Positions 3,211 to 15,783 of a stretch of 64,000 nucleotides of DNA are shown one piece after another. The stretch's first letter is position 1. Every line of letters begins with the position of its first letter. The notes beneath the pieces are model-generated. The model saw only the letters and a list, made by a program, of their open reading frames with translations. It made no database searches and was not told where the DNA came from. The translations under genes were made by a program, and so were the position numbers. This stretch comes from Crocinitomicaceae bacterium (lineage in GTDB: Bacteria; Bacteroidota; Bacteroidia; Flavobacteriales_D; Crocinitomicaceae). The DNA lies in assembly GCA_021740085.1 (NCBI GenBank), contig JAIPAL010000001.1:248001-312000 (forward strand), written 5' to 3'.

Positions 3211-4447
3211 TTTTCCTGATAAAGGTAAGGAGTAGTTGGTTCAGCGAATCAAATGCCTCAAAACTTAGGGCCTCATAGCGATCCTCCACATCGTGATAAT
3301 GTTTGTTTGGCCCCATCGTATAGATAAAAAATGCAGGTACCCCCGCTTCGGTAAAATAATAATGGTCTGAATTTGCGGCAGGTCCACGTGGCTTAATTTC
3401 TTTTAACAATCGCTTTTTAGCATTAATGGATTTCAATAAATCAAATTCCTTCGGAAACAAGGTAGAATTAACTACCGTTATTCCTTCTTCGCCACTTCCC
3501 ATAATGTCTAAGTTGAGCATAAAACGGATTTCTTTTAAGGGAATAATAGGATTCGTAGACATGTATTTTGATCCGAGTAATCCAATTTCTTCTCCTGCAA
3601 ATGCAACAAATAATACGTTGTATTTTATCGGATGCTTTATTAACTCCTCGGCCAAGTGAATTAACATGGCATTTCCACTAGCATTATCATTTCCACCAGG
3701 AAAATAGGTTTCGCTGCCCATTCGGCCTAAGTGATCATAATGTGCTGAAATAAGAAGTGTCTTTTTTGTTTTTGCTTTTCCTGCGCAGAATCCAATCACG
3801 TTATTGGCAACATGATTTCGTATATGTTTTTGTTCCAGATCAAGATAAAGCATAGCGGGAAGTTCTTTAAACGCGGACTTTAAAATGATTAAATGCAAGG
3901 CCTTACTCGCTTCTTGACTTACCGACCAGGTTAGTTTTTCATCGGTGATTTCTATAATTGGATAAGAAGCGGCTAGTCCTGCGATTTTGGTTTTTATAAG
4001 TTTAAGGGAATCTTTAGATAGGCCTGTATAGTCAATTACGATAGCCTCCTCTTTTTTAAGCGTGAAAGTTGATTTGCTAATTGAAAGAAATTCATTGGGA
4101 GTAAAATAGATCAAGCTAAGCTTCCCTTTCATGCCGGCGGAATTTGGGGCCACTAAAAAATCGATTCCGGGCCGCAAGGTGTCTGATTCAGTATAAACCA
4201 GCATCTTTCCTGGAAAGGTATTAACGGGAAACGAAAAAGATTGAAAGTAAGAGCCTTCAATGGGTGACAGCCCTATTTTTTTAAAGTGTTGGGAAATGTA
4301 TGCTGCCGCAATAGAATCTCCCTGATTGACATATCCTCTTCCGTGGAATGCTGGGGAACACAATTGCTTGGTATAAGCGCGAAAGTCGACTTGCTGTCCC
4401 CAGGAGGAGAAAGCAAAACAGGTGCTAAGCAGCAGGGCTATTCGCAT
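3203..4447 (-). CDS. M28-family zinc aminopeptidase, secreted
   Basis: A 414-residue protein with an N-terminal signal peptide (about 1-18). The C-terminal half is an M28 di-zinc exopeptidase domain. The family's ligands and catalytic residues are visible: H236 in AHYDH, D254 in GGNDNASG, E286/E287 in AGEEIG, D314 in LNLD and H362 in SDHYYF. It should cleave N-terminal residues from peptides outside the inner membrane. The middle region (about 80-210) probably holds a PA-like insert. Its start overlaps the end of the upstream minus-strand gene by 23 bases, suggesting one operon. Substrate is unknown. Confidence 0.88.
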   Translation of the reverse strand: MRIALLLSTCFAFSSWGQQVDFRAYTKQLCSPAFHGRGYVNQGDSIAAAYISQHFKKIGLSPIEGSYFQSFSFPVNTFPGKMLVYTESDTLRPGIDFLVAPNSAGMKGKLSLIYFTPNEFLSISKSTFTLKKEEAIVIDYTGLSKDSLKLIKTKIAGLAASYPIIEITDEKLTWSVSQEASKALHLIILKSAFKELPAMLYLDLEQKHIRNHVANNVIGFCAGKAKTKKTLLISAHYDHLGRMGSETYFPGGNDNASGNAMLIHLAEELIKHPIKYNVLFVAFAGEEIGLLGSKYMSTNPIIPLKEIRFMLNLDIMGSGEEGITVVNSTLFPKEFDLLKSINAKKRLLKEIKPRGPAANSDHYYFTEAGVPAFFIYTMGPNKHYHDVEDRYEALSFEAFDSLNQLLLTFIRKIK

Positions 4448-5306
4448 ATCTCCTGCATATTTTTAGAACGAACTCTTCAATAATTTCGAAAGATTTTACA
4501 AAGTTCCATGCATTTGATTCTGCATTGCCAATTAAGACCAAAATCGCTCCGGCCATATTCTGTTGCTCATTAAGGTTTTTAACTGCTGTGCCAAAAGCCT
4601 CGCTTGATCCTCCGAAAAGCGCATTGATATATTGTAGTTTTTCTGTCAAGGTAAATGACCCTGCCAAGCTTTCTAGTGGTAGTATCGCTCTTTCTCCACG
4701 GATGTTCTTTTCCATTGCGCGAAACTGTGCTATCATAGGGTGGTCGCTTGCAACGATGTGTTGGTCATTTCTATCTTCCGATTCATTCGAAAAGCTAATG
4801 GTGGTGACCTCTTCTTTATTGATAACAATAATTGAATCACCTTCTTCTATGGTTGCCGCGTGTTCTTTTATGATAGTCTCTTCTGTTATACCATGCTCGT
4901 CTTCAATCGTAGTGGTCTCTGAATAATGTTCTTCAATCGTTTTGTCCGATTCGGGTTCTAATAAAGCCTCTTCTTCATCGCTGAATAAACTGAAATCAAA
5001 AGGTTTACTAGCTGGCGGGGTGTCATTTACTTCAATTACAGGAGTCTCGCTAACTACCGGAGTTTCGATAGTTTCAATAACGGTCTCTTCTATCGCTTCG
5101 AAAGCAGGGACAGAACTCTTTACTTCAGGACTTTTATCTCCATTGTTTTTGGCTGCCATTTCTTCGTAAACCTTATACCGGAGAATTATTAATTGTTCTT
5201 GTAACAAGTTACATTGCGTTACCAAAAAATCCAAGTCTTCTAAATTGATATCTTGCTCTTCTATGGCTTTGATGTGCATTGAAATGGAACTAATAAGTTT
5301 TTTCAT
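4425..5306 (-). CDS. Acidic protein of unknown function with conserved-looking C-terminal helical domain
   Basis: A 293-residue soluble protein with no signal peptide. It has three parts: a helical N-terminus (1-55, likely coiled coil), a long acidic Glu/Thr/Val-rich low-complexity linker (about 65-190), and a compact helical C-terminus (about 195-293, starting near NIRGERAILPLE) that looks like the functional module. I do not recognise a family. The layout suggests two small domains tied by a flexible tether. It precedes and overlaps the M28 peptidase gene, but that does not reveal its role. Confidence 0.7.
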   Translation of the reverse strand: MKKLISSISMHIKAIEEQDINLEDLDFLVTQCNLLQEQLIILRYKVYEEMAAKNNGDKSPEVKSSVPAFEAIEETVIETIETPVVSETPVIEVNDTPPASKPFDFSLFSDEEEALLEPESDKTIEEHYSETTTIEDEHGITEETIIKEHAATIEEGDSIIVINKEEVTTISFSNESEDRNDQHIVASDHPMIAQFRAMEKNIRGERAILPLESLAGSFTLTEKLQYINALFGGSSEAFGTAVKNLNEQQNMAGAILVLIGNAESNAWNFVKSFEIIEEFVLKICRRYANSPAA

Positions 5307-5434
5307 TTGGTATAATTTTATAATTTTTCAACTGTTTATTGAAGTTAATAGTTTTTTTTTCTACTTAATAAATCAATTTATCTTCCTTAGTTGTCAAAAT
5401 TAGAAAACCTATCGCTATCATTGTGATAATAATA

Positions 5435-5459
5435 AAAAATATTTATTATTTATAAATTT
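5435..5459 (+). repeat. AT-rich direct repeat, left copy
   Basis: A 25-base sequence of A and T only that recurs at 5642-5666 with 24 of 25 bases identical. The two copies bracket the double palindrome. Low complexity weakens the case for shared origin. Confidence 0.45.
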
Positions 5460-5505
5460 CAAAAAATATTTGAATGGTCTTAATTATACCACAAGACTAT
5501 TACAT

Positions 5506-5680: not shown

Positions 5681-6256
5681 ATGTTTTTAGAACAATTTCC
5701 CGGAGAGGGTAGGCAACATGGTTGGATTGAAGTAATATGCGGATCGATGTTCTCCGGCAAGACAGAAGAACTTATTAGAAGAATTAAAAGAACGCAATTT
5801 GCCAATCAAAGCTTGCTTTTATTTAAGCCTGCTATTGACAACCGTTACAGTGAAAGCAACGTGGTTAGTCACCAAGGTAATGCCGTTGAAGCACTTCTAA
5901 TTAATGATTCTTCTGAAATATTATCGGCATGGAAGAATGAAAAAGTAGTAGCAATCGATGAGGCACAATTTTTTGACGATGGTATTATTGAAGTCTGTCA
6001 TATTATAGCATCTAAAGGGGCGAGGGTAATCATCGCAGGCTTAGATATGGATTATACGGGGAAGCCTTTTGGTCCGATGCCGAATCTTTTATCCATTGCA
6101 GAATATGTTACCAAAGTCCATGCAATTTGTCTTTCATGTGGTAATTTAGCACAGTTTTCTCATCGTACAGCAAACGAATCAGGGCAAGTATTGGTGGGTG
6201 CTGTAGAAAAATACCAACCGCTTTGCCGTTCATGTTTCAATAAACTTACTACTTGA
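5681..6256 (+). CDS. tdk: Thymidine kinase, type II
   Basis: A 191-residue cytosolic enzyme that phosphorylates thymidine to dTMP with ATP in pyrimidine salvage. The P-loop GSMFSGKT is at 21-28, the DEAQFF motif with catalytic base E94 at 93-98, and the nucleoside lasso region at about 120-145. Four structural zinc cysteines are present at C150, C153, C182 and C185. Length matches the family. The stop overlaps the TTG start of murF-alr by 4 bases, so translation is probably coupled, an arrangement often seen in Bacteroidota. Confidence 0.95.
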   Translation: MFLEQFPGEGRQHGWIEVICGSMFSGKTEELIRRIKRTQFANQSLLLFKPAIDNRYSESNVVSHQGNAVEALLINDSSEILSAWKNEKVVAIDEAQFFDDGIIEVCHIIASKGARVIIAGLDMDYTGKPFGPMPNLLSIAEYVTKVHAICLSCGNLAQFSHRTANESGQVLVGAVEKYQPLCRSCFNKLTT

Positions 6257-8553
6257 ATTTAGCAATTGACGTATCAAGACTTATACAAATTAGTAAAGCC
6301 GAAGTTGTTGGAACAATACCGGCGGACCTTCTCCTAAACTCAATTTCTGTTGATACCAGAAAAATTATTGATGGTTCCCAGCTTGCTTTTTACGCTTTGC
6401 AAGGTGAATTCAAAGATGGTAATGAATTTATTAATGATGCTTATTCAAAAGGAGTCCGTGTTTTCGTTGTAACAAAAAAACCGAATACACCCCTTGAAAA
6501 TGCTTGCTTCCTAGTGGTCAAAGACGCATTAACAGCACTTCAGTCTTTAGCGAAATTCCACCGAGATCAATTTCAATTTCCGGTAATTGCCATTACGGGT
6601 AGTGTTGGTAAAACAACCACAAAAGAATGGCTGTATCATTTATTATCGACCCAATATCGAATCATTAGAAGTCCGAAAAGTTATAATTCTCAACTTGGTG
6701 TAGCTCTTTCCTTGCTTGAATTAAACGATGACTGCGATGTGGCGATAATTGAGGTGGGAATATCCCGCCCCGGTGAAATGGAAGTACAAGAAAAAATGGT
6801 GTCTCCTGACATTGCCGTATTAACAAACATAGGAACGGCTCATTTAGAAAACTTCAAGGATTTCTCCCATCTATGTATGGAAAAATCAATGTTGTTTTCA
6901 AGGTCCAAAAAGACATTCTTAGGCCCTGGCATTCATCTTGGCGACCTTCCATTTCTTAATGAAGGAGATATAATCAACATGGATACAGAAGAATTGCGTT
7001 CGCTTCCATTTGATGACGCTGCTAGTAAAATGTCAGCGACAATAGCTATTGCCATCGCTAAATTTTTAAAGGTTCCCATTGAAAAAATAAGGGCCGCCAT
7101 TCCTTCATTGCCTCGCTTGGCCATGCGCTTAGAAACGTATGAAGGCGTATACAATAACTTGATCATTAATGACACCTACAACTTAGATCTTGAGGCACTA
7201 AAGCATTCCTTGGAATTTCAAGCGTCTATCGCTAACAAGCGCCCAAGGGTCCTGATTATTGGCTTGCACGAACAAGATTCACCTATGCTAGAAAAGATTT
7301 ATAGCATAGCGAAATCATTTAATTTAAACGAAATTCATGTCGTGAATAGCGGCAATGAGCCCTCTTTTACCTTTGAAAATTCGGTTGTACTGATAAAAGG
7401 AACGAGAAAATCAAACATGCAAAAATGGGCCATGCACCTCAAACTACGAAAGCATAAGACGCAAATAGAAATTAATTTATCAGCAGTAAGACACAACCTT
7501 GTAGAATATAAAGAGAGTTTGCACAAGGAAACAAAAATCTTAGTAATGGTAAAAGCGCAAGCTTATGGAAGTGGATTGGTCCGAATAGCTCAGTTTATTG
7601 AAAAAACCGGCGTTGATTATTTGGGCGTTGCTTATGTAGACGAAGGCGTTGAACTTAGAAAAGCAGGTGTTTTATTGCCAATTCTGGTCATGAATGCCGA
7701 AGAAGAAGCTTTTGGGGATTGCATTAATTATAATTTAGAACCAGCGATTTATTCTTTTGAGCAACTTGATGCGCTTCTTCATGAATTAATAGCGCAAAGC
7801 AAGGACGGCTTCCCCGTTCACCTGAAGTTTGATACCGGAATGAATCGCTTAGGGTTTTTACCAAATGAAGTCCGAAAATTGGTTGACATCATTCGATCAC
7901 AACCCGAAATTTGCATTAAAAGTGTGTATTCTCATTTAGCAGAATCAGATAACAAAGAAAACCAGCGCTTTACTTTAGATCAAATTGAACGATTCTCTTC
8001 TTCTTGTGAACAAATCAAAACAGCGATCAACCAGCCTTTTTTGCGCCACATATTAAATTCCGATGGGATTGTAAATTTTGCAAGCAATCAATTTGACATG
8101 GTGCGAATGGGAATTGGTGTTTTTGGAATTAGTACAAATCCAGTTTGGAAAAAAAAGCTACAAACCGTTATAGCATGGAAAAGCACCATTTCTCAACTAA
8201 AAAAAGTAAGTAAAGGTCAAAGTGTTGGCTACAATCGCTCTTTTATTGCCCCAACGGATTTAACGATCGCTGTAATTCCAGTTGGTTATGGAGATGGCTA
8301 TAGACGAAGTTTAAGCAATGGAAAGGGTGGCGTGTTTATTCAAGGTGTTTTTTGTCCAACGGTAGGGAATGTTTGCATGGACATGATTATGGTGGATGTG
8401 ACTCACGTAAAGGCAAAATCAGGCGATGAGGTTGAAATCATTGGGCCGAATCAAGGGGTGGAAGAGTTGGCGATTCAAATGGGGACCATTCCCTATGAAT
8501 TATTAACGGGAATTTCTCAACGGGTTCATCGAAGTTATATGAATGAAGATTAA
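6253..8553 (+). CDS. murF-alr: Bifunctional MurF ligase / alanine racemase
   Basis: A 766-residue fusion supplying and using D-alanine for peptidoglycan. Residues 1 to about 395 are MurF (UDP-MurNAc-tripeptide:D-Ala-D-Ala ligase), with the ATP loop GSVGKTTTKE at 116-125 and the family motif NDTYNLD near 306-312. From about 402 it is a PLP alanine racemase, with PLP lysine K434 in VKAQAYGSG and catalytic Tyr660 in SVGY. The start is TTG at 6253, overlapping the tdk stop; no nearby ATG would keep the N-terminal domain. Known fusions are usually about 815-830 residues. Here the MurF central and C-terminal parts look about 50 residues shorter, while the key motifs remain. Confidence 0.92.
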   Translation: MNLAIDVSRLIQISKAEVVGTIPADLLLNSISVDTRKIIDGSQLAFYALQGEFKDGNEFINDAYSKGVRVFVVTKKPNTPLENACFLVVKDALTALQSLAKFHRDQFQFPVIAITGSVGKTTTKEWLYHLLSTQYRIIRSPKSYNSQLGVALSLLELNDDCDVAIIEVGISRPGEMEVQEKMVSPDIAVLTNIGTAHLENFKDFSHLCMEKSMLFSRSKKTFLGPGIHLGDLPFLNEGDIINMDTEELRSLPFDDAASKMSATIAIAIAKFLKVPIEKIRAAIPSLPRLAMRLETYEGVYNNLIINDTYNLDLEALKHSLEFQASIANKRPRVLIIGLHEQDSPMLEKIYSIAKSFNLNEIHVVNSGNEPSFTFENSVVLIKGTRKSNMQKWAMHLKLRKHKTQIEINLSAVRHNLVEYKESLHKETKILVMVKAQAYGSGLVRIAQFIEKTGVDYLGVAYVDEGVELRKAGVLLPILVMNAEEEAFGDCINYNLEPAIYSFEQLDALLHELIAQSKDGFPVHLKFDTGMNRLGFLPNEVRKLVDIIRSQPEICIKSVYSHLAESDNKENQRFTLDQIERFSSSCEQIKTAINQPFLRHILNSDGIVNFASNQFDMVRMGIGVFGISTNPVWKKKLQTVIAWKSTISQLKKVSKGQSVGYNRSFIAPTDLTIAVIPVGYGDGYRRSLSNGKGGVFIQGVFCPTVGNVCMDMIMVDVTHVKAKSGDEVEIIGPNQGVEELAIQMGTIPYELLTGISQRVHRSYMNED

Positions 8554-11358: not shown

Positions 11359-11880
11359 ATGAATCCACGCGTAGAAAAGGCACTTAACGACCAAATTCAA
11401 AAGGAGGCATCCTCCTCTCAATATTACCTTGCCATGGCTTCGTGGTCAGAAGCAAATGGCTTAGGCGGAACAGCAAAATTCATGTATGCACATTCTGATG
11501 AGGAACGTTTCCATATGTTGAAATTGGTAAAATTTGTCAATGAGCGTGGAGGTTGCGCCGAAATAGCAGGGGTTTCAACACCCCCTAAAGAGTTTAATGA
11601 CTTAAAAAATGTCTTTGAATCTTTGCTAGCTCACGAAATTCGAGTAACCGAAAGCATTAACAATTTAGTGGATATTTGCTTACAAGAAAAGGATTACACC
11701 ACCCATAATTTCGTTCAATGGTATGTTTCTGAACAACTAGAAGAAGAAGCCTTAGCACGAACAATGCTGGATAAACTTCGTCTTATCGGCGATAATCAGG
11801 GTGGCATGTACTTATTCGATAGGGACTTGGAAAACGCCTCTCAAGAAAAATCTCCCCCCACTCAGCAAACTGGAAATTAA
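11359..11880 (+). CDS. ftnA: Ferritin (iron storage)
   Basis: A 173-residue four-helix-bundle ferritin without haem-binding features, so a non-haem bacterial ferritin. Ferroxidase ligands are visible: E16, E49 and H52 (the ExxH of the second helix), plus acidic residues near 93 and 126-130 (EQLEEE). It oxidises Fe2+ and stores the ferric core in a 24-mer in the cytosol. Length is normal, with a short polar tail at 160-173. A receptor-cyclase gene starts 3 bases after its stop, which may be read-through or an operon. Confidence 0.95.
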   Translation: MNPRVEKALNDQIQKEASSSQYYLAMASWSEANGLGGTAKFMYAHSDEERFHMLKLVKFVNERGGCAEIAGVSTPPKEFNDLKNVFESLLAHEIRVTESINNLVDICLQEKDYTTHNFVQWYVSEQLEEEALARTMLDKLRLIGDNQGGMYLFDRDLENASQEKSPPTQQTGN

Positions 11881-11883
11881 GGA

Positions 11884-14800
11884 ATGAACAGGGTAAAAGA
11901 TCTTTTCTACTCTATTTTTCTTTGCTTATTATCGTTTACCACAAACGCCCAATCCGACCTGCGGTTTATTAATTATACCATTTCTAATGGTCTATCACAA
12001 AGTATGGTTTCAACTATACTGGAGGATGAATACAATGGCATCTGGGTAGGTACTCAAGAAGGCTTGAATCATTTTGATGGCAGAGAATTTAGGGTGTACA
12101 ATCGTGAAAACACCCCTAATATTTACAATGCGTACATAACTTCCTCTGCCAAAACTGGCCAGGGGGAATTATGGTTCGGGACGGTAAACGGATTGCTTTT
12201 GTTTAATTCTAAAACAGGAAAATTCTCCACTTTTTTTCTAACTAAAAAAGAAGCGCTCCACATTGAAAGCATTGTTTATGATGGCAACGAATTCTTGTGG
12301 GTGAAAACCCAGGGAAAGTCGCTATTATGTTTTAATATAAAAGCGAGAAAATTTATTTCCGTCCCTGGATTTATTCCGAAGTCAAATATTCAGTTTATAG
12401 CAGGCGTTTCTGACGGAAAGATGCTGGTCTCCTCAGCAACACAAGGAGTATGTATAATTGATATCTATAAAAAAACAAGCTCAAGGCTACAAATTCCACT
12501 GCAAAATGGAAATTCTCCATTCACTGTAATGGCAGCTTATACCTTTGATAACAACAAAAAAATCATTTTCTCATCTTCGCAAGGATTGTTTACGTATTCG
12601 TTGATTACTAAAAAAGTTCAGAGAGAATACACTTCAATAAATCAAAAAATTAGCAGCTCTATAATAGGAATACAACGCGCAAACAACACCTGGCTTTTTG
12701 CCACGAATGGGCAAGGATTGGTGCAGTTAAAGCAAGATGGACAAGTGATTATTAGTACCGACGACGTCTTCAAGAAAAACTCGCTATTGAATAATAATAT
12801 TTCCTTTTTATTAATTGACAATTCTGGAATTGGTTGGGTCGGAAGCGAAAGAGGCCTTTCTAGCTTTAACCCAAATGATCGCGGCTTCTTTTCCATCGGG
12901 CCGAGTGTAAATACAATGTATGGCTTGCCAAGTCAAAACGTATGGAGTATAAATGAAAGTAAGAATTCAGAATTTGTTTACATAGGGACAGATTCTGGTC
13001 TTTCAAAGTATAATCAAAAACTAGGAACCTTTCAGCACTTTTACAATGATCAGTTATTGAATGAAGGAGGCGGCTCTGTACTTTCTATCATGGTTTTGCC
13101 GGATGAATCCCTTTTATTGGGCTGTTATGGGGGCTTATATCGTTTAAATCCTAAAGATCGCTCCGGTAAGTTTCAAAAAGTCAATTTCCCAGGAAATCCA
13201 AAAGCAAACTTGCACCAACGTATTTATTCAATTCTAAAGTATAGAAATGAGGAGTATTTTCTAGCAACAAATGCAGGGGTTATCTTATGGAATGAAAAGA
13301 CGGGGAAAACAAGTTATTTCACACATGATATTCGTAATACGGCAAGTACGATTAAAGAGGGAATATGCAGAACTGTTTTTAAAGATAAACAAGGAACCAT
13401 CTTTTTCTCCACTAGCAGCGGAGGCCTTAGTGTTTTTGACGCTTCTACCATGTCGATCAAGCCATTTTGGTTAAACGATAAGATTTATACTTATACACGG
13501 GATATTATAAGTAGTATTTGTCAAACGGGGCCGAATGAGTATTATCTAGGAACGCTAGGGGAAGGGATCTTAAAGTTTAACACTTCGACTTTAAAGGGTT
13601 TGCTAATCAATAAGAAGCTAGGATTGCCCAATAATGTGATCTATGGAATTTTGCCGGACGAAAGCAATAATTTATGGGTAAGTACGAATCGAGGGCTTGC
13701 TAAATACAATTTATCTACCGGTGAAACAAAAAAATTCGACGAATTAAATGGGCTTATTTGCAACGAATTTAATTCTAATGCCTATTTTAAATCACGCAAT
13801 GGCAATCTGTTTTTTGGAGGTATTTACGGGTGTAATTATTTCCACCCGTATAATATTGTTAACACTAAACAGCTTTCTAATGTGATCATTTCTAGTTTAT
13901 TGATCGATGCAAATAAACAATATCCTGTAGGCAAAGAATTTAATGCCTTTGAATTATCTCGCCTAAATGATGGGATATTATCACTCGATTATCGTCAACG
14001 AAGCTTTACCGTATTTTTTCAACCCACTAATTTATGCGCACCGGAATTAATCGTTTATAAATATGTTTTAGAAGGCGAACAAATAGATACTAAGGTTTTT
14101 TCTAATACTAATTCAGTTAATTTTAATGCCTTATCTTTTGGTAAATACACATTAAAAATATATGCCAGAATTGGTGATGGCCCATGGAGCAAGGTGCCAG
14201 CCACACTTGTTTTTGTCATAAATCCACCTTATTGGGCGACATTTTTGTTTTGGGCAATTGTTATTATTATTATTTTCTTTAGTGTTTATTTTCTCATCCG
14301 AAATAGAATCAACCAAACAAGGCGCGATCAGGTTAGGTTAGAAATGAAAATCGCAGAAAGAACACGTGAAATTCGTCTTCAAAAATCTCAAATTGAGGTT
14401 CAAAATAGCTTAATTAATGAAGAAAAAAACAAAGTAATTGCTCAACAAAAACTACTTTTTAAAGAAAAAGAAATAGCTGAAAAATGGCTGAAAAATGCCC
14501 TTCCAGTGCAGGTGGTTAAAGAGTTAAATATGAATGGAAAAGTTCAAGCAAAGGCCTATGAATTTGTGTCGGTCATGTTCACCGATGTGGTTGGATTCAC
14601 AAAAATAGCGGAGTCGATGTCTCCAAGTCGCTTGGTAGCAAAATTAGATGTCATTTTTCGAAAATTCGATGCCATTTCATTAACGAATAACCTCGAGAAA
14701 ATTAAAACTATTGGTGATGCGTATATGGTCGCTGGGGGAATACCAGATAAAAACTCTACGCATCCAATTGATTCTTGTATTGCGGCACTTCAGATTCAAG

Positions 14801-15783
14801 ATTATATGAATCGATTAAAATTTGAAGCCATCGCTAATGGAAAAGATTTTTGGCAATTGAGAATTGGAATCAATTCTGGGCCAGTTACCGCGGGAATAAT
14901 CGGAAAATTGAAAATCGCCTACGATGTTTGGGGAGCAACAGTAAATCAGGCGCAACGAATGGAAATGCTTAGCGAACCAGGAAAGGTAACCATTTCAGAA
15001 TCAACGTTTAATTTTGTAGAGCCCTACTTTGAATGTGAATATAAGGGCAAGGCTCAAACTAAATCAAAAACCCTTGTTGATATGTACGTTGTTCATGCTA
15101 TAAAAGAAGAGTTATCTATAAACGGAGAGGGATTAATACCGAATGACCGCTTTTATCAAATTGTACAACTTCACTTTTTTAGTGACATAAAGTATTACAA
15201 AGCCGAACGAGAAATCATAAAAAAATTAACAGACGGTCTTCAGCCTCATTTGCTTTATCATTCGGTGGGTCATACAAAAGATGTGGTGCATGCTGTTGAG
15301 CGGATTGCTTTACTTGAAGGAATAACGGATGAAGGATTGTTTTTACTCAAAACGGCGGCGCTTTTCCATGATGCAGGATTTTTAGAGCAATACGATTCAA
15401 ACGAATACATCGGTGCACAAATGGCGGCGAATCTCTTGCCTAAATATGGTTATACCGAACAACACATTACTACTATTGTGGATTTAATTAAAGTTACTGA
15501 AATACCACACAAGCCTCTAAATCACTTACAAGAAATAATGTGTGATGCCGATTTAGATTACCTGGGCAGAGATGATTTTCAACAAATCGCTAATAATTTA
15601 AAGTTGGAACTGAAAACGATGGATAAAATAAAAAGCGATAGAAAGTGGGATGAAATTCAAGTGTCGTTTTTAAATAAACATCAATACTTTACCAAAACGG
15701 CCATCAATAGCAGAGAGGAAAAGAAAAAAGAAAATATTGCTATTATTTTAGCCAGATTAGAAGAAAACAACTACCCGGACTAG
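11884..15783 (+). CDS. Receptor adenylate cyclase: beta-propeller sensor, one TM, class III cyclase, C-terminal HD domain
   Basis: A 1299-residue inner-membrane protein. Order: signal peptide (1-22); regulator-propeller repeats of the hybrid two-component type (about 25-670; motifs such as GIWVGTQEGL, NNLWVSTNRGL); Y_Y_Y domain (about 690-775); one membrane helix (about 784-806); coiled coil (about 810-860); class III cyclase (about 890-1070); HD phosphohydrolase-like domain (about 1110-1245). Cyclase metal ligands D901 and D945 and transition-state residues N1021 and R1025 are present. K941 and D1014 specify adenine, so cAMP is the expected product. HD ligands H1130, H1162, D1163 and D1221/D1223 are also present. 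A periplasmic ligand probably controls cAMP level. The role of the HD domain is unknown: it may degrade a nucleotide signal. Confidence 0.88.
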   Translation: MNRVKDLFYSIFLCLLSFTTNAQSDLRFINYTISNGLSQSMVSTILEDEYNGIWVGTQEGLNHFDGREFRVYNRENTPNIYNAYITSSAKTGQGELWFGTVNGLLLFNSKTGKFSTFFLTKKEALHIESIVYDGNEFLWVKTQGKSLLCFNIKARKFISVPGFIPKSNIQFIAGVSDGKMLVSSATQGVCIIDIYKKTSSRLQIPLQNGNSPFTVMAAYTFDNNKKIIFSSSQGLFTYSLITKKVQREYTSINQKISSSIIGIQRANNTWLFATNGQGLVQLKQDGQVIISTDDVFKKNSLLNNNISFLLIDNSGIGWVGSERGLSSFNPNDRGFFSIGPSVNTMYGLPSQNVWSINESKNSEFVYIGTDSGLSKYNQKLGTFQHFYNDQLLNEGGGSVLSIMVLPDESLLLGCYGGLYRLNPKDRSGKFQKVNFPGNPKANLHQRIYSILKYRNEEYFLATNAGVILWNEKTGKTSYFTHDIRNTASTIKEGICRTVFKDKQGTIFFSTSSGGLSVFDASTMSIKPFWLNDKIYTYTRDIISSICQTGPNEYYLGTLGEGILKFNTSTLKGLLINKKLGLPNNVIYGILPDESNNLWVSTNRGLAKYNLSTGETKKFDELNGLICNEFNSNAYFKSRNGNLFFGGIYGCNYFHPYNIVNTKQLSNVIISSLLIDANKQYPVGKEFNAFELSRLNDGILSLDYRQRSFTVFFQPTNLCAPELIVYKYVLEGEQIDTKVFSNTNSVNFNALSFGKYTLKIYARIGDGPWSKVPATLVFVINPPYWATFLFWAIVIIIIFFSVYFLIRNRINQTRRDQVRLEMKIAERTREIRLQKSQIEVQNSLINEEKNKVIAQQKLLFKEKEIAEKWLKNALPVQVVKELNMNGKVQAKAYEFVSVMFTDVVGFTKIAESMSPSRLVAKLDVIFRKFDAISLTNNLEKIKTIGDAYMVAGGIPDKNSTHPIDSCIAALQIQDYMNRLKFEAIANGKDFWQLRIGINSGPVTAGIIGKLKIAYDVWGATVNQAQRMEMLSEPGKVTISESTFNFVEPYFECEYKGKAQTKSKTLVDMYVVHAIKEELSINGEGLIPNDRFYQIVQLHFFSDIKYYKAEREIIKKLTDGLQPHLLYHSVGHTKDVVHAVERIALLEGITDEGLFLLKTAALFHDAGFLEQYDSNEYIGAQMAANLLPKYGYTEQHITTIVDLIKVTEIPHKPLNHLQEIMCDADLDYLGRDDFQQIANNLKLELKTMDKIKSDRKWDEIQVSFLNKHQYFTKTAINSREEKKKENIAIILARLEENNYPD

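Follow-up and report, generated by a model that had tools for sequence, protein, structure and literature searches.

A 64,000-nucleotide stretch of the genome of a Crocinitomicaceae bacterium (GCA_021740085.1, contig JAIPAL010000001.1, positions 248,001 to 312,000; hereafter the window) carries a gene for a membrane receptor in which a large beta-propeller, a class III nucleotide cyclase and a C-terminal HD domain are joined in one polypeptide. Judging from its sequence, this receptor is, somewhat more likely than not, a bifunctional synthase and phosphodiesterase of cyclic AMP (cAMP): the propeller would sense a ligand, the cyclase would make cAMP, and the HD domain would break it down. The domain order, the intact catalytic residues and the way cyclase and HD domain stay together among near kin are read directly from the sequences. 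That the cyclase makes cAMP is presumed, as is action of the HD domain on cAMP, suggested by its resemblance to cyclic-nucleotide phosphodiesterases (PDEs) and by its partners, and ligand binding would presumably shift the balance between synthesis and breakdown.

In the proposed mechanism, a ligand bound by the periplasmic propeller would act through the transmembrane segment and a cytoplasmic signaling helix on a cyclase dimer. The attached HD domain would then remove the cyclase product, yielding either a local cAMP pulse that ends itself or a balance set by the ligand. Within the HD domain, H1130, H1162, D1163 and D1223 would bind metal and H1126 would serve as the general acid, while F1262 would stack on the adenine ring and Q1259 would hydrogen-bond to it.

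Pfam searches of the whole receptor protein find Reg_prop (2.4e-19), Y_Y_Y (6e-9) and Guanylate_cyc (PF00211, 2.3e-45), and the hydropathy profile (over 19 residues) peaks at 2.94 at residue 787, marking one strong transmembrane segment. Among solved structures, two-component sensors resemble the propeller half (4a2l, 4e-60; 3v9f, 2.3e-54), and no histidine kinase or response regulator domain is matched by Pfam at 0.001 in the receptor protein. A preliminary description of this DNA had already proposed that a propeller, a class III cyclase with its catalytic residues and an HD domain with intact metal ligands share one membrane protein. Pfam, hydropathy and conservation bear this out, and the accompanying remark that propellers of this kind usually end in a histidine kinase agrees with the matches to 4a2l and 3v9f.

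Class III adenylyl cyclases are marked by two metal-binding Asp residues, an Asn-x3-Arg motif, and an adenine-type Lys and Asp. The window cyclase combines the PF00211 match with the full catalytic set, as D901, K941, D945, D1014, N1021 and R1025 are all in place; we take K941 and D1014 to be the adenine-type residues, and the roles of the other catalytic residues are assumed in the same way. Among 81 proteins, D901 is conserved in all 79 that align there, K941, D945, D1014 and N1021 in 81/81, and R1025 in 72/81. The AlphaFold2 (AF2) model of the cyclase-HD half has a predicted local distance difference test score (pLDDT) of 90.9. Its cyclase part matches class III cores with a Z score of 26.8 (5oyh_E), and the linker helix (model m04b94429ddba) aligns with the corresponding helix of soluble guanylate cyclase 8hbe_A. 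Such a domain would make cAMP from ATP.

The C-terminal HD domain is real despite its sub-cut-off Pfam score. It is not listed in the Pfam search of the whole receptor at 0.001, and when searched alone it reaches PF01966 with 21.8 bits (E 2.5e-4), just below the cut-off of 22.0. PF01966 is matched at E<=1 by 19/19 members of the HD alignment A1 (best 1.7e-10), and residues H1126, H1130, H1162, D1163, D1223, Q1259 and F1262 are identical in 81/81 proteins. The window domain has the H...HD...D metal ligands and the all-helical fold of the HD superfamily. Of 230 different HD sequences, 226 preserve the full ligand set H41, H45, H77, D78, E89, T120, D136 and D138 (domain numbering, to which 1085 is added to obtain receptor residues). 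When the single HD sequence is compared with the PDB by phmmer, the sole match is to a ribosomal protein (E 1.2); the assignment was resolved with profiles, and NCBIfam gives weak matches only (best 0.017). Matches to troponin C were judged to reflect a chance EF-hand-like pattern and were set aside. An identity as HD-GYP was also dropped, since GYP, the motif of that family, does not occur in residues 1086-1299.

Alignment of profiles brings the HD domain together with class I PDEs at their active site. In hhalign, the 19 HD domains of A1 match PDE4D plus PDE5A moderately (E 2.8e-5, probability 74), and H41, H45, H77, D78, T120, D138, E157, Q174 and F177 pair with the YHNxxHA, HD, AT, ADL, E, Q and F elements of PDE4D. 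Posterior values on the PDE residues are 0.999 for H1126, 0.998 for H1130, 0.995 for H1162, 0.979 for D1163, 0.891 for D1223, 0.898 for Q1259 and 0.884 for F1262. The profile alignment thus places the metal ligands, the general-acid His, the purine-pocket Gln and the clamp Phe of class I PDEs at equivalent positions in the HD domain. A general-acid His and a clamp Phe are part of the general background on PDEs. For the purine Gln, the role of 'glutamine switch' is described in PMC8177086. When the PDE C-terminus was shuffled as a control, both the Gln and Phe columns were reached in 7/100 runs and both residues were matched in 2/100. The Gln/Phe match is seen with A1 and with the Gln-type subset, and alignment A4 shows it (posterior 0.71) only once the threshold is relaxed; in default local mode A4 covers columns 9-80 alone, and the narrow alignment A2 reaches a probability of only 5.5 against the PDEs. 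PDEase_I (PF00233) is matched below its cut-off by 7/19 members of A1 at E<=1 (best 1.1e-4).

Structure prediction, which the preliminary description had proposed as a check, gives an HD fold at a mean pLDDT of 95.5 that superposes on PDE10A, PDE7A, PDE2A and PDE5A. PDE10A ranks first in VIA-align (4dff_B, Z 18.0, root-mean-square deviation 3.0, 201 residues aligned), and PDE7A (Z 17.3), PDE2A (17.1) and PDE5 (16.9) are among the other PDE rows, which cover 201-211 residues.

The same description had also proposed to look for this domain order in other genomes, where it recurs. The HD domain is fused C-terminally to a cyclase in 80/80 loci of the named collection, and 62 of these carry the propeller and Y_Y_Y. 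These loci are the best 80 of 578 confirmed, picked as closest by HD match, so that both fusion and HD conservation are favored in the counts. Their titles are mostly Flavobacteriales or Crocinitomicaceae, including the isolates Crocinitomix catalasitica and Brumimicrobium, with some metagenome titles otherwise named. The propeller and Y_Y_Y are absent from 18 loci, three of them cut by a contig end, leaving 15 complete loci of the form transmembrane helix-cyclase-HD. The short forms viewed (L012, L014, L018, L030) lack the propeller and keep a transmembrane-like helix. Two of them, L018 and L030, share with the window a ferritin-like gene immediately upstream; given the retained helix and this neighbor, the short forms look like the same locus after loss of the sensor. 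In L052, a Y_Y_Y-cyclase gene (3748-5499) and a separate HD gene (2240-2878) lie close together on one strand as a split form of the fusion. The receptor's C-terminal region is present in 87/100 genomes. In 30 of 37 same-genus genomes, the source included, there is exactly one PF00211 match, each adjoining an HD match.

This partnership would also be seen if the HD domain were a non-catalytic module that binds nucleotide or metal, or dimerizes, and so tunes the cyclase. The C-terminal placement in all 80 close loci fits such a module, as does the joint conservation of the two domains: mean pairwise identity among 55 complete full-length proteins is 64% for the cyclase and 67% for the HD domain, the latter favored by choosing the proteins on HD similarity, compared with 36% for the propeller. 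A purely regulatory role nevertheless seems distinctly unlikely, because the eight-residue ligand set persists in nearly all HD sequences, many of which have no cyclase, and the HD ligands stay intact even where the cyclase arginine has been lost.

HD domains of this family are also joined to other partners. Further cyclase fusions include REC-cyclase-HD (L043, L048) and GAF-cyclase-HD (L166), and non-cyclase fusions include TPR-HD (L161) and HD-YitT, in which the partner is a YitT-type membrane protein with DUF2179 (L159, L163). HD-PycTM proteins are found in L055, L058, L060, L173, L174, L177, L180 and L181, and all eight frames scanned are 390-457 amino acids long. Across 247 genomes of the phylum, the HD profile matches in 114 (weak matches included) and PycTM, a Pycsar effector, in 93. 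For 51/110 PycTM matches an HD domain of this family is part of the same frame, and for another 5 it lies no more than 3 kb away. Plasmid records contain HD matches in 2/72,556 cases, at 29-33% identity.

The strong HD matches of the phylum number 97 (down to E 7.8e-26, with the source genome G000 and G020 left out) and consist of 51 PycTM fusions and 46 others. Four of the 46 were set aside (G223 and G200:C1:1022202, stop inside; G247, which is cyclase-fused; and G283, an 863-amino-acid frame), and 40 of the 42 listed were fetched, without G273 and G245. A class III cyclase lies nearby in 11 of these 40 loci (flanks up to 4.5 kb) against 0.26 expected, an expectation built from PF00211 counts per genome among the matches listed, whereas the neighbors were found with a local profile. 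In L245 (4480-7817) and L246 (1720-5091), successive genes of a single strand encode a class III cyclase, PycTM and a stand-alone HD protein, an arrangement that can be read as a putative Pycsar-like set with a putative eraser.

The residue at the purine-pocket position varies with the partner. With identical HD sequences collapsed, Q174 (Q1259 in the receptor) is Gln in 118/118 cyclase fusions, 19/48 others and 2/52 PycTM fusions, where Asn prevails (40/52); these 52 rows comprise 8 of the 51 phylum fusions, 40 of the other 43, and L055, L058, L059 and L060. Among HD domains with a neighboring cyclase, 7/9 have Gln, or 8/11 once L159 (Gln) and L178 (Thr) are added; both had first been scored as 'other' from a kept copy with short flanks, and L253 and L264 show the cyclase nearby. 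The two HD domains that neighbor both a cyclase and PycTM have Thr and Ala. F177 (F1262) is Phe in 118/118 cyclase fusions and 35/52 PycTM fusions. The HD rows are related, the cyclase fusions being mostly close kin, so phylogeny confounds the Gln/Asn split and the Fisher and Poisson values computed from such rows are descriptive only. A broader proposal can be put forward tentatively: Bacteroidota may possess small class-I-type phosphodiesterases of cyclic nucleoside monophosphates that serve as built-in off-switches, fused to sensor cyclases (Gln, cAMP) or to PycTM (mostly Asn, cyclic pyrimidines). A single residue would then tell which nucleotide is erased, and the window receptor would be the cAMP form.

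Several observations weigh against a bifunctional cAMP receptor, among them sequence kinship. The closest PDB relatives of the HD family are the HD hydrolases 2pq7 (1.8e-10), Lin1889, YedJ and BH2835 (to 4.3e-8), with the first PDE chain in the same profile search at 0.0028. A pooled profile of 20 weak-match HD proteins from the same genomes, 14 with and 6 without the YpgQ segment described below, matches the family at E 2.8e-23, far closer than the PDEs. The first metal motifs of the PDEs also find a counterpart in this control set (E 7.2e-5, probability 63, 65 columns), though Gln/Phe do not, so that likeness at those motifs is generic. In structure comparisons, Foldseek places 2pq7 first (8.2e-4), with PDEs next from E 0.0099, and in VIA-align 2pq7 ties with the PDEs (Z 17.1) over 170 residues, while the PDEs cover more of the model. 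PDEase_I is not listed for the window HD domain searched alone, and exceeds its cut-off in 0/198 phylum genomes, where the one sub-threshold match is an HD-PycTM gene. Moreover, only one of the 97 strong phylum matches is a cyclase fusion (L166, from G247), so the fusion is frequent within the window's order and rare beyond it.

Since the nearer sequence kin of the family are other HD hydrolases rather than PDEs, its substrate may be another nucleotide. The domain could be a YpgQ-like pyrophosphohydrolase of (deoxy)nucleoside triphosphates, or could act on a by-product such as AMP, and be merely co-regulated with the cyclase. YpgQ acts on deoxynucleoside and nucleoside triphosphates, and the substrate-binding Arg of the segment DADRLDAxGAxGxxR is its R136, according to the accessible part of PMC8177086. 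This segment is present in 14/20 control HD proteins but reads DADLDYLGRDDFQQI in the window HD domain when aligned to Lin1889. A different hydrolase activity would also leave the partnering with cyclases and PycTM, and the Gln/Asn split by partner, unexplained, and on these grounds such an activity appears unlikely. In PMC8431786, the plant YpgQ-like HD protein BDPDE1 is assayed on cAMP and/or cyclic GMP (cGMP), with AMP as product, and AtCN-PDE1, which is related to it, reportedly lowers cGMP. The possibility raised in the preliminary description, breakdown of cAMP or another nucleotide by the HD domain, stands in part. The PDE-like active site of the profile, the PDE-like fold, the cyclase and PycTM partnering, and the Gln that tracks the partner favor breakdown of a cyclic nucleotide, and closer kinship to other HD hydrolases does not.

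The remaining points against cAMP turnover come from the cyclases and the genome. R1025 is replaced by Gln, with HD ligands intact, in 9/81 proteins (L077, L078, L080, L089, L094, L098, L103, L109, L145) and R1025 is likewise Gln in 8/39 open reading frames (ORFs; L010, L016, L021, L025, L027, L028, L029, L031); the two samples overlap, and the window gene is counted twice in the second. In G026, estimated to be 100% complete, the sole PF00211 match is such an R-to-Q cyclase with its HD domain kept, a combination difficult to reconcile with breakdown of this cyclase's own product by the HD domain, unless cyclases with Gln are active. The source genome encodes one CRP-like protein (PF00027), in which no cAMP cassette is recognizable by eye. 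Its assembly (2.41 Mb, 101 contigs, 87.6% complete) contains two PF00211 matches, the window receptor and a membrane cyclase that looks TPR-like by eye. Counting in favor of a bifunctional receptor, PDEase_II has no match in any of 20 genomes that include the source.

R-to-Q cyclases beside intact HD domains could also mean that the substrate of the HD domain is not cAMP but a different cyclic nucleotide, or is the product of another enzyme (cGMP, cyclic CMP or cyclic UMP), and that the fused cyclase makes a different signal. Fusion of HD relatives to PycTM, a receptor of cyclic pyrimidines in the available part of PMC11224242, points the same way. Yet the adenine-type K941 and D1014 are invariant, every cyclase fusion has Gln rather than Asn, and PycTM has no match in the source genome at its 87.6% completeness, so this possibility is considered very unlikely. 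Action of the window HD domain on cAMP remains the favored interpretation. Coordinates of the receptor and its parts are collected in Table 1.

Table 1. Receptor gene and its parts, in window positions
Feature	Residues	Window position	Strand	Basis
Whole receptor gene, propeller-Y_Y_Y-TM (transmembrane)-cyclase-HD, ATG start	1299 amino acids	11884..15783	+	ORF, Pfam
Signal peptide-like N-terminus	1-23	11884..11952	+	read by eye: hydrophobic core, then AQ
Reg_prop beta-propeller sensor, predicted periplasmic	25-715 (approximate limits)	11956..14028	+	Pfam; 4a2l/3v9f similarity
Y_Y_Y domain	720-779	14041..14220	+	Pfam 6e-9
Single transmembrane helix	about 787-808	14242..14307	+	hydropathy
Cytoplasmic signaling helix / coiled-coil linker	809-886	14308..14541	+	long helix opening AF2 model
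Class III nucleotide cyclase domain	887-1071	14542..15096	+	PF00211, conservation, structure match
Cyclase residues	D901, K941, D945, D1014, N1021, R1025	14584, 14704, 14716, 14923, 14944, 14956	+	sequence, conservation
HD domain	1086-1299 (214 amino acids)	15139..15780	+	Pfam PF01966, conservation, AF2 model, hhalign
HD residues	H1126, H1130, H1162-D1163, D1223, Q1259, F1262	15259, 15271, 15367-15372, 15550, 15658, 15667	+	

A ferritin gene occupies window positions 11359-11880 and ends three bases ahead of the receptor gene start. Farther upstream, positions 6253-8553 form a single ORF, which we take to encode a MurF-alanine racemase fusion.

Should the HD domain prove to be a PDE, cAMP signaling in Bacteroidota would gain a defined off-switch. 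A self-limiting domain would then also be built into 51/110 PycTM matches, and the view of how Pycsar activation ends would change. The Gln/Asn split offers a direct mutational handle on specificity. Among the matches listed in the open-access literature, including those for propeller-cyclases and bifunctional cyclases, there is no bacterial cyclase-HD fusion, and none of the listed papers has PycTM together with 'HD domain'. The terms 'HD domain' and 'phosphodiesterase' are absent from the accessible part of the Pycsar paper (PMC11224242).

A protein that makes and erases cAMP is already known from plants, and it is the bacterial cyclase-HD form that was not found among those literature matches. 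CAPE (COMBINED AC with PDE), from Marchantia and other streptophytes, joins a class III adenylyl cyclase to a cyclic-nucleotide phosphodiesterase in one protein, and both activities have been measured for MpCAPE (accessible parts of PMC5159850; CAPE also appears in those of PMC8115329). In the plant protein the PDE comes first and the cyclase last, whereas the bacterial protein has the cyclase first and the HD domain last, beneath a propeller; its HD domain belongs to a smaller family, and its PDE activity is predicted only. Pycsar systems (PycC with PycTM or PycTIR) are related in that HD relatives are fused to PycTM or lie beside it, in L245 and L246 next to a class III cyclase as well. The window protein differs as a sensor cyclase, in a genome where PycTM is unmatched and PycTIR was not searched for.

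Class I PDEs (PF00233) share with the window domain the HD fold, the metal ligands and, as placed by profile alignment, the position of the general-acid His and the purine-pocket Gln and Phe. Their catalytic constructs are about 326 amino acids long, compared with 214 for the bacterial HD domain, which falls below the Pfam cut-off and has a predicted activity. YpgQ-type HD hydrolases (5dqv, 2pq7) have the same metal motif and are nearer in overall sequence than the PDEs, but the window domain lacks their DADRLDAxGAxGxxR segment and has the Gln/Phe pair. With the hybrid two-component sensors of Bacteroidota (4a2l, 3v9f), the receptor shares the Reg_prop propeller and Y_Y_Y, the output being a histidine kinase and regulator in those sensors and a cyclase-HD unit here. 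The making and breaking of one nucleotide signal by one protein, as proposed here, is familiar from GGDEF-EAL and GGDEF-HD-GYP proteins and from RelA/SpoT, although their signals are cyclic di-GMP and (p)ppGpp and their synthases have other folds.

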